Below the pieces are notes generated by a model. It saw only the letters and a list, made by a program, of their open reading frames with translations, searched no databases and was not told the DNA's origin. 64,000 nucleotides of DNA, taken from NCBI RefSeq assembly GCF_017355875.1, contig NZ_JAFEWC010000001.1, forward strand, positions 1,736,001-1,800,000, given 5' to 3'. The stretch's first letter is position 1; each line of letters begins with the position of its first letter. Position numbers and translations under genes: made by a program. This DNA is from Aridibaculum aurantiacum (GTDB taxonomy: Bacteria; Bacteroidota; Bacteroidia; Chitinophagales; Chitinophagaceae). This document shows, piece by piece, positions 7,281 to 41,825 of this stretch.

Positions 7281-7322
7281 TTCAAAAGGCAAAAGTCAAA
7301 AATTAGAAAGTAAAAAGAAAAA
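7281..7322 (+). repeat. Degenerate tandem heptamer tract (A-rich, GTCAAAA family) in the 3' UTR
   Basis: Starting on the base after the e(P4) stop codon, the sequence divides into 7-mers without gaps: TTCAAAA, GGCAAAA, GTCAAAA, ATTAGAA, AGTAAAA, AGAAAAA, and a further GTAAGAA that already belongs to the terminator stem. The units are imperfect, but A-richness at fixed phase is kept. The same arrangement occurs after several other genes in this window. Confidence 0.65.
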
Positions 7323-13600: not shown

Positions 13601-13604
13601 ATGC

Positions 13605-13632
13605 AAAATGAAAAATTAAAAAATAAAAAGAA
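13605..13632 (+). repeat. Degenerate tandem heptamer tract (AAAATTA type) in the 3' UTR
   Basis: Four contiguous 7-mers AAAATGA, AAAATTA, AAAAATA, AAAAGAA begin 4 bases after the DUF1330 stop codon, in the sense orientation. Low complexity alone could give this, but period and position match the other tracts. Confidence 0.5.
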
Positions 13633-13710
13633 AACCGAAGACCAGAACGGTCATGTTTTACTTTAGGTTCCTTCCCGAGGTTGAAAATGAAGTGGTTGTA
13701 TAAAAAGAAA

Positions 13711-13760: not shown

Positions 13761-13832
13761 TTTACTTCGTACCTCGTACTTCGTATTTCGTACCTTGTTT
13801 TAGTACTTCGTTCTTACTCTCCGTTCTTCTAC
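13761..13832 (-). repeat. Degenerate tandem heptamer tract (CGAAGTA type) in the 3' UTR
   Basis: On the minus strand, directly after the stop codon of the sugar dehydrogenase gene (stop at 13833-13835), the sequence passes through ACGAAGT and CAAGGTA and ends in CGAAATA, CGAAGTA, CGAGGTA, CGAAGTA at constant phase. It stops 5 bp before the terminator stem. It uses a different heptamer from the A-rich tracts but has the same period and the same place between stop codon and terminator. Confidence 0.7.
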
Positions 13833-32164: not shown

Positions 32165-32190
32165 GGGAGCTGTCAGCTAGCAGAACTTGT

Positions 32191-32224
32191 AAGTCAAAAG
32201 TCAAAATTCAAAAGTCAAAAAATT
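32191..32224 (+). repeat. Tandem heptamer tract, AAGTCAA type
   Basis: Units AAGTCAA, AAGTCAA, AATTCAA, AAGTCAA in uninterrupted phase from 32191 to 32218, then A-rich sequence. It begins 27 bp after the stop of the GGT-family gene, in sense orientation. Confidence 0.75.
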
Positions 32225-32252
32225 AGAGATCAGTGATTAGAGATTGGTGATC
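32225..32252 (+). repeat. Tandem heptamer tract, AGAGATT type
   Basis: Exactly four units with no gaps: AGAGATC, AGTGATT, AGAGATT, GGTGATC. It directly follows the AAGTCAA tract. Confidence 0.7.
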
Positions 32253-32262
32253 AGGCAAAAGA

Positions 32263-32333
32263 ACATCAAACACCAGATAATCGACATCATATATCAGACA
32301 TCAGACATCAAAACATCAGACATCATACATCTC
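32263..32333 (+). repeat. Tandem heptamer tract, ACATCAG type
   Basis: About ten units (ACATCAA, ACACCAG, ATAATCG, ACATCAT, ATATCAG, ACATCAG, ACATCAA, one inserted A, ACATCAG, ACATCAT, ACATCTC). It is the third heptamer type within 145 bp and ends 11 bp before the next promoter element. Confidence 0.75.
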
Positions 32334-32343
32334 TACCTGGTGC

Positions 32344-32351
32344 TACTTTTG
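32344..32351 (+). promoter_or_regulatory. -7 promoter element (TACTTTTG)
   Basis: Perfect TAnnTTTG 23 bases before the ATG of the RibD-C reductase gene. No clear -33 TTTG. Confidence 0.5.
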
Positions 32352-32374
32352 CCAATAATTTCAAAACAATAGAA

Positions 32375-33081: not shown

Positions 33082-33123
33082 AAGTCAAATTAAAAAGTCA
33101 AAAGTCAAAAAGCAAAAGTCAAC
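33082..33123 (+). repeat. Tandem heptamer tract, AAGTCAA/AGTCAAA type
   Basis: Six gap-free units: AAGTCAA, ATTAAAA, AGTCAAA, AGTCAAA, AAGCAAA, AGTCAAC. It starts 2 bases after the stop codon and ends 4 bases before the terminator stem. Confidence 0.75.
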
Positions 33124-41629: not shown

Positions 41630-41634
41630 TCTGG

Positions 41635-41655
41635 AAATCAAAAGTCAAAATTCAA
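41635..41655 (+). repeat. Tandem heptamer tract, AAGTCAA type
   Basis: Three units AAATCAA, AAGTCAA, AATTCAA begin 5 bases after the prfB stop and run directly into the terminator stem. Confidence 0.65.
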
Positions 41656-41681
41656 AAGCTGCTCATGTTTGAGCAGCTTTT
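41654..41681 (+). terminator. prfB terminator
   Basis: AAAAGCTGCTCA (41654-41665), loop TGTT, TGAGCAGCTTTT (41670-41681), then TGTTT. Confidence 0.8.
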
Positions 41682-41797
41682 GTTTAAGCGACATCATTTT
41701 GTAGTTACTTGGTTAGTGTCAGCCTTTTGATCAGAAAATGTGTCAATAAATATTTGTTCTTCAGTCTGAACACAAGCATCAACATCAAGAGTTCAGG

Positions 41798-41825
41798 TTT
41801 TGATTTTTGACTTTTTACTTTTGAC
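41798..41825 (-). repeat. Tandem heptamer tract, GTCAAAA type
   Basis: On the minus strand, starting on the first base after the stop codon of the isoprenoid-synthase-like gene: GTCAAAA, GTAAAAA, GTCAAAA, ATCAAAA, with no gaps. Confidence 0.75.

Follow-up and report, generated by a model that had tools for sequence, protein, structure and literature searches.

Period-7 repeat arrays at gene ends in Aridibaculum aurantiacum and related Chitinophagaceae

Heptad blocks behind a gamma-glutamyltranspeptidase gene

The window, the whole 64-kb stretch of DNA analysed here, contains a gene for a gamma-glutamyltranspeptidase (GGT; PF01019, E 1.4e-108) followed, across an intergenic gap, by a gene for a RibD_C-domain protein (PF01872, E 1e-20). 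The gap carries three consecutive blocks of tandem heptads, and further arrays of the same period lie elsewhere in the window:

32165..32374, + strand: whole gap, from the gamma-glutamyltranspeptidase stop (32164) to the start of the next open reading frame (32375), delimited from open reading frames and Pfam
32191..32220, + strand: block 1, four AAAAGTC-type heptads (AAGTCAA AAGTCAA AATTCAA AAGTCAA), the third unit deviating
~32221..32258, + strand: block 2, five degenerate heptads (ATTAGAG ATCAGTG ATTAGAG ATTGGTG ATCAGGC)
32263..32331, + strand: block 3, G-poor heptads of ACATCAG type, several of them imperfect, with a single 8-nt step
33087..33117, + strand: second AAAAGTC array, behind the next + gene (lag-7 scan, TRF)
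7283..7322, + strand: lag-7 array in a convergent gap (lag-7 scan)
13601..13643, + strand: lag-7 array of ATGAAAA type in a convergent gap (lag-7 scan)
13763..13792, + strand: TACTTCG-type array on the opposite side of the convergent gap holding 13601..13643 (TRF, lag-7 scan)
41635..41657, + strand: AAAAGTC-type array in a convergent gap, forming the left arm of the window's clearest inverted pair
41798..41825, - strand: right arm of that pair, ending at the stop codon of a - gene

Over 32191-32333, 86 of 136 comparisons at lag 7 are matches, against a mean of 42.5 (sd 5.4) in dinucleotide-shuffled sequence, a value that none of 2,000 shuffles equalled; the best of the other lags from 3 to 13 gives 46 matches, and lag 14 gives 67. 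Each block also exceeds its own 2,000 dinucleotide shuffles, none of which was as high, with 21/23 matches in block 1 (shuffled mean 8.9), 19/31 in block 2 (8.6) and 40/62 in block 3 (20.3), so that the succession of three period-7 blocks described behind this GGT-family gene in the first-pass annotation is real. Block 2, which TRF does not call while it calls blocks 1 and 3, consists of five degenerate units in place of four clean AGAGATT. The three families had also been described as unrelated; they are not wholly so, blocks 1 and 2 being C-poor and block 3 G-poor. A complementary arm pair was looked for in the gap 32165-32374 and none was found, the predicted fold being weak, and Rfam gave no match above its gathering score in the 64-kb window.

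Period, position and dispersal of the arrays

The genome to which the window belongs (G000; 4.86 Mb in 5 contigs) was sampled over 460 contiguous kb around the window, with genes taken from a simple hexamer-scored caller (379 genes and 315 gaps; starts may be off). Intergenic arrays at lag 7 number 39 in this sample against 0.3 expected from shuffles, which places them in the heptanucleotide class of long simple sequence repeats, with units of seven above chance. The period is specific: lags 5, 6, 8-11 and 13 yield 0-3 arrays each, lag 14 yields 30 and lag 15 yields 5, in agreement with the earlier proposal of a process that favours a 7-nt period.

The arrays are concentrated at gene ends. Convergent gaps (n = 54) hold 18 and tandem gaps (about 190) hold 21, many of the arrays starting within a few bases of a stop codon, and the 70 divergent gaps hold none of the 39, against 10.9 expected by length (p 3e-6); the first-pass annotation's confinement to 3' regions thus passes this test. 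Autocorrelation over the same 460 kb bears out its expectation of a lag-7 peak behind genes, the excess being strong in the 100 nt after stop codons (z 9.9) and in convergent gaps (z 10.2) and absent in the 100 nt before starts (z 1.3) and in divergent gaps (z 0.8), with lag 14 weakly raised before starts (100 nt, z 3.6). A lag-15 excess is also seen in the 100 nt after stop codons in this sample (z 5.8).

Sense-strand stop codons in stop-proximal arrays show no enrichment over a null that keeps the period (p 0.10-1.0), a null without periodicity having overstated it, and the idea that arrays supply stops in three frames was dropped on this ground. The strand opposite the gene holds more stop codons than the period-keeping null (p <=0.002 in G000 and in three related genomes, G018, G059 and G060, whose families are not independent).

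Array length has a preferred value. In G018 and its congeners G059 and G060 (~90% and ~84% DNA identity, respectively), 82 of 143 arrays measure 27-33 nt, or about four heptads; the peak is weaker in the own genome, at 12 of 39. Samples of 100 kb from relatives gave 45 arrays in G018, 16 in G012 (one a run of N), 7 in G016, 3 each in G013 and G017, 2 in G009 (which, like G001, belongs to the same genus as the own genome) and 0 in G003 and G015. Density is uneven, with 74 arrays in 500 kb of G018 as against 45 in its 100-kb sample, and divergent gaps hold some arrays in these genomes: 9 of the 74 in G018, where 20.3 are expected, 4 in G012 and 3 in G016 (100-kb samples). Among 80 loci around GGT orthologues, the Pontibacter group (n = 30) has 1 array, the Pedobacter group (n = 27) 0, and Chitinophagaceae and others (n = 23) 4; different heptads follow the stop codon of the orthologue in Segetibacter aerophilus, and none were seen behind that of a Segetibacter metagenome-assembled genome. 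In 140 kb of G018, G059 and G060 the only Rfam matches were two tRNAs.

The block vocabulary recurs. The AAAAGTC doublet occurs in 16 of 59 genomes, the own included (14/36 within the family and 2/23 outside), where its reversed control occurs in 9 genomes and at most 9 times per genome; in the own genome it is present 50 times and the control 0. The block-1 30-mer, deviating third unit included, is found exactly at 4 places in the own genome (the tract included) and at 3 in G012, which belongs to a different genus of the family, and with up to 3 mismatches at 54 sites in the own genome (reversed control 0). Within 300 nt on the same strand, 10 of 43 AAAAGTC arrays are followed by an ATC[AC]GACATC-type block, against ~0.6 expected per side; such a block lies ahead of the array in 4/43 and on its opposite strand in 0/43. 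These 10 arrays sit in 8 stretches, the tract among them and one also matched in the ACATCAG search, with three arrays within a single 3-kb stretch. Because this order recurs in the genome, the succession at 32191-32333 is one case of a repeated arrangement.

One 30-nt arm of the G018 genus is likewise dispersed, with up to 3 mismatches at 110 (G018), 314 (G059) and 174 (G060) sites; its reversed control has 23, 75 and 43, the arm being nearly its own reverse. Exact copies number 61 in G059 and 26 in G060, counted with exact sites ranked ahead of mismatched ones. The earlier suggestion that the tract does not reflect spread of one sequence is not supported, given these exact 30-mers and the recurrent AAAAGTC to ATC[AC]GACATC order. 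Copies bearing this arm on both sides (26 distinct) span 133-149 bp in 19 cases and 112-149 bp in 24, and their interiors differ. Unlike MITEs, 26 copies of one arm family show no target-site duplication (0 immediate repeats of 2-9 nt). A shared interior, another MITE trait, is seen in an AATTAGG-armed G018 element with several near-full-length relatives, G059 places that match it over 105-149 nt at 72-82% identity among the matches listed; of 53 interiors, 25 have no match in 900 kb other than themselves, and the shared-interior idea was set aside for that reason.

Other dispersed intergenic sequences came to light beside the heptads. One, GTTGCGTCGCAC then A/T CTTGTRC, lies in several gaps, including an own-genome gap at window coordinate 81501 (past the window end), locus L078 after the GGT stop, and L333; repeats around GCGCCTTAGTGG / CACTAAGGCACGAAG adjoin heptad arrays or gene ends in L335, L351 and L083.

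Arm pairs, turnover and strand

Arrays at the two sides of a gap are commonly complementary in the G018 genus. All gaps that hold two or more arrays were used, with no selection for pairing, and the first array was compared with the last. The arms are complementary in 23/29 gaps of G018, 13/14 of G059 and 9/12 of G060 (45/55 together, counts that share orthologous gaps), as against 23-31% when arms are drawn from different gaps (permutation p 0.0002 in each genome); direct, non-inverted similarity is near chance (p 0.36, 0.055 and 0.29). In the own genome pairing within gaps (4/12) is not distinguished from that across gaps (26%; p 0.26), and G012 has complementary arms in 1/5 gaps (not significant). 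A blunter test, on gap halves and covering 29 gaps, gives p 0.064. In the window, pairing is clearest in the gap 41630-41825, which has an inverted similarity of z 9.9; a GC-rich stem and a following run of T's lie between the two arms. Arms are polar, those on the 5' side being A/G-rich and those on the 3' side T/C-rich. When read in the nearer gene's sense, an array of a convergent gap is poor in C (5.6%) and rich in G (26%). Mismatches in arms comprise 34 of G-U and 23 of A-C type, so that a G-U bias is not clear.

Two features of the interiors were noted in passing. A GTGYHGC motif, chosen post hoc, lies just inside the left arm, within 30 nt of it, in 11/41 interiors versus 1.2% of background windows and crosses arm families (G018, G059, G060). 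Some copies of one family have a CATTC...GAATG stem-loop, its outer bases changed and still pairing; a scan for this stem-loop in ten genome samples gave no clear excess over control cores.

Between species, the arms change. At least one of G018, G059 and G060 has an array in 29 of 67 orthologous gaps, and in gaps 30, 35, 39 and 59 both arms differ jointly in family: in gap 39 the three species have three heptad families on paired arms, while the sequence past the element remains alignable, and in gaps 30, 59 and 35 one species has a different arm pair. Left-arm and right-arm similarity are correlated (Spearman 0.64, over 26 non-independent pairs). A thresholded count of joint replacement (7 pairs with both arms the same, 10 with both different, 9 mixed) gives Fisher p 0.23, a table blurred because AATTAGG and AATTAAT arms are alike.

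Where an array abuts a stop codon, the codon varies with the array: on the left side of gap 30, as on the right side of gap 59, TAA precedes TTAATAAT or TTAAGAAT, and TAG precedes GAACTAG or GAATTAG. The triplet seven bases further along is identical to the stop codon in 7/40 array-near genes versus 12/267 others in G018, 6/22 versus 5/106 in G059 and 4/16 versus 5/128 in G060; the own genome has 1/21 versus 3/277. Length changes by seven as well. Indels of exactly 7 nt make up 7/32 of those at arrays (from 5 gaps) and 2/159 of those elsewhere in the gaps of the G018 genus, in support of the 7-nt period proposed earlier.

The AAAAGTC family also has a strand. In the own genome the + strand of the contig carries 36 of 42 collapsed arrays regardless of gene direction (17/19 in -- gaps and 9/11 in ++ gaps), in stretches partly selected for holding arrays but not for strand. 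GC skew on contig C1 is positive in 19/20 pieces of at least 20 kb each between 0.2 and 1.86 Mb and negative in 4/4 pieces at 2.4-2.72 Mb, where two of the - arrays are located; contigs C2 and C4 are weakly positive and C3 is mixed. Together, the bias and the skew suggest that the strand preference reflects a replication-linked process.

Explanations and precedents

The reading we favour, and to which we give an even chance of being right, is that these are dispersed, fast-turnover hairpin-arm repeats tolerated at gene ends, and that the tract at 32191-32333 is a decayed member; its hairpin component is an extrapolation from the G018 genus, own-genome pairing being not significant. The tract would belong to a set of dispersed intergenic repeats, each a short tandem run of heptads that commonly has four units. 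Heptads poor in C would occupy the 5' side of a gap and heptads poor in G its 3' side, and in the G018 genus the two complementary sides could fold into a hairpin. Slippage by one 7-nt unit would keep the arms periodic, and whole arms or elements would be copied to new gene ends. Selection would clear arrays from coding and promoter DNA, so that they would accumulate right behind stop codons. On this view the families at 32191-32333 may be layers that turnover has left in succession and that are now partly decayed, namely an arm of the AAAAGTC 5' type, a degenerate block of 5' type and a block of the ACATCAG 3' type. Such an explanation would need no function. In its favour stand the 39 arrays where 0.3 are expected, their absence from the 70 divergent gaps and their starts close to stop codons, the exact dispersed arms, the relatives of the AATTAGG-armed element, the recurrent block order in the own genome and, in the G018 genus, the complementary arms, the joint family differences, the correlated arm similarity and the 7-nt indels. 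Counting against it are the non-significant pairing in the own genome and G012, the tract's own gap without a pair, the Fisher p of 0.23 for joint replacement, the missing target-site duplication, the lack of a transposase tied to the arms, the 25/53 interiors that match only themselves, and the divergent-gap arrays of G018, G012 and G016.

We favour this reading over plain polymerase slippage, in which seven nucleotides is the preferred slip and arrays arise independently, without an element or copying, and persist where harmless. Slippage draws on the prevalence of heptanucleotides, which in many genomes are more frequent than any other long simple repeat and for which a polymerase-contact idea has been offered (Mrazek 2007, as cited in PMC4679880), on the 7-nt indels at arrays, and on a strand bias of AAAAGTC such as a replication-linked process could give. 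It leaves unexplained, however, the complementary arms within gaps, the exact 30-mers found at unlinked places and in two genera with their deviating unit unchanged, the ordered block succession and the four-unit peak, and we judge it unlikely.

Hairpins of RNA or DNA under selection at gene ends, for instance two-way terminators or stabilisers of mRNA 3' ends in which heptads keep the arms complementary, would account for the paired arms in 45/55 gaps of one genus, for the arm polarity and for arms that flank a GC-rich stem and T's, as at 41630-41825; in Xanthomonas, transcript starts or ends are more frequent at repeats able to form quadruplexes than at control sequences (PMC4692102). A hairpin role is nonetheless improbable in our estimation, for arm mismatches lack a clear G-U bias, arrays are absent from most gaps, pairing is not significant in the own genome and wanting at the tract, and arrays lie on the antisense strand in tandem -- gaps.

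REP/REPIN sequences of RAYT transposases are dispersed inverted pairs in intergenic DNA, a likeness that, with Y1_Tnp (PF01797) matches in 7/8 genomes searched, would suit sequences moved by Y1 (RAYT-type) transposases. No tie of heptad arms to Y1 genes was found: of 20 Y1 loci inspected one, L306, has lag-7 arrays, two short ones (the L309 row is a run of N), and L303 and L304 by eye have GTAG-type palindromes in place of heptads. The Y1 link is thus not supported, and we regard it as highly improbable. As an observation in its own right, the Y1 genes at L303 (own genome, C3 near 313925) and L304 (G059) are flanked on both sides by GTAG-containing palindromes, CGTTCCGTAGGAACG and TTGCCCGTAGGGCAA, an arrangement that resembles RAYT genes with their own REPs.

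Rho-loading (rut) sites follow a spacing rule, and rut RNA is C-rich and G-poor on the sense strand. A Rho site with one pyrimidine-C pair per heptad of the sense RNA, an idea that arose from the TC found every 7-8 nt in blocks 1 and 3, is barely credible and was dropped on composition, since arrays in convergent gaps are the reverse of rut, C-poor and G-rich in the nearer gene's sense, and the TC-bearing strand of AAAAGTC is antisense in -- gaps.

An excess of heptads in bacteria has been noted for years without its cause being settled (PMC4679880, PMC4692102). The closest precedent is the GGGAATC repeat of Xanthomonas (PMC4692102), mostly of four units and intergenic, which adjoins or overlaps the stop codon of the preceding gene, lies between divergent genes in 7-8% of cases, forms 70 and 75 inverted pairs in two species and varies strongly in length between species. 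The arrays described here share the four-unit peak (G018 genus; weaker in the own genome), the nearness to stop codons and the rarity between divergent genes (0/39 in the own genome, 9/74 against 20.3 in G018); inverted pairs are strong in G018, G059 and G060 and not significant in the own genome and G012. Xanthomonas has a single G-rich heptad, whose four-unit preference is linked with G-quadruplexes and explained by quadruplex-forming power, and its repeats lack a leading- or lagging-strand preference (PMC4692102), whereas many different heptads occur here; four GGG runs are present in 0/68 left arms, and the G-rich Xanthomonas pattern is absent from 5 genomes searched. Because the arms here are alike in length, place and pairing without G-tracts, the link between quadruplexes and four units is unlikely to be general.

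Intergenic heptads in Bacteroidota have been published before: TAACTGA direct repeats occur in Beggiatoaceae, Cyanobacteria and some Bacteroidetes, with mixed heptads in some of the last (MacGregor 2015, PMC4679880). That system resembles ours in its intergenic direct repeats, in 7-nt indels between Cyanothece strains and in a Microcystis sample from between stop codons that lies all on one chromosome strand; it differs in that TAACTGA in Beggiatoaceae lies mainly before start codons and the arrays here behind stops. The TAACTGA doublet is found 0 times in the own genome and once each in G018, G059 and G060. The accessible part of PMC4679880 does not describe the 3' restriction or paired arms, and in the searched open-access literature we found no report of Bacteroidota heptad arms that pair. 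In the P6b stem of the Nostoc tRNA-Leu intron, degenerate heptads of varied classes form a hairpin and change in copy number (PMC3488679), at one intron locus as opposed to gene ends genome-wide, and Geobacter metallireducens has 49 dispersed copies of an element with four tandem heptads (PMC2700814), though these are GC-rich, lie within genes too and are called putative regulatory.

A bolder reading, which we put forward with more doubt than confidence, is that layout may define the element class: two inverted arms of about four heptads starting from the stop codon, with the heptads of both arms exchangeable together. Whatever copies or maintains such elements would then read four times seven nucleotides and not a motif, the repeats of Xanthomonas, Geobacter and Chitinophagaceae would be of one kind, and the preference for four units would have a cause other than quadruplexes. 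Since both arms differ in family between species at ~90% and ~84% DNA identity, the generating process can be studied in close strains.
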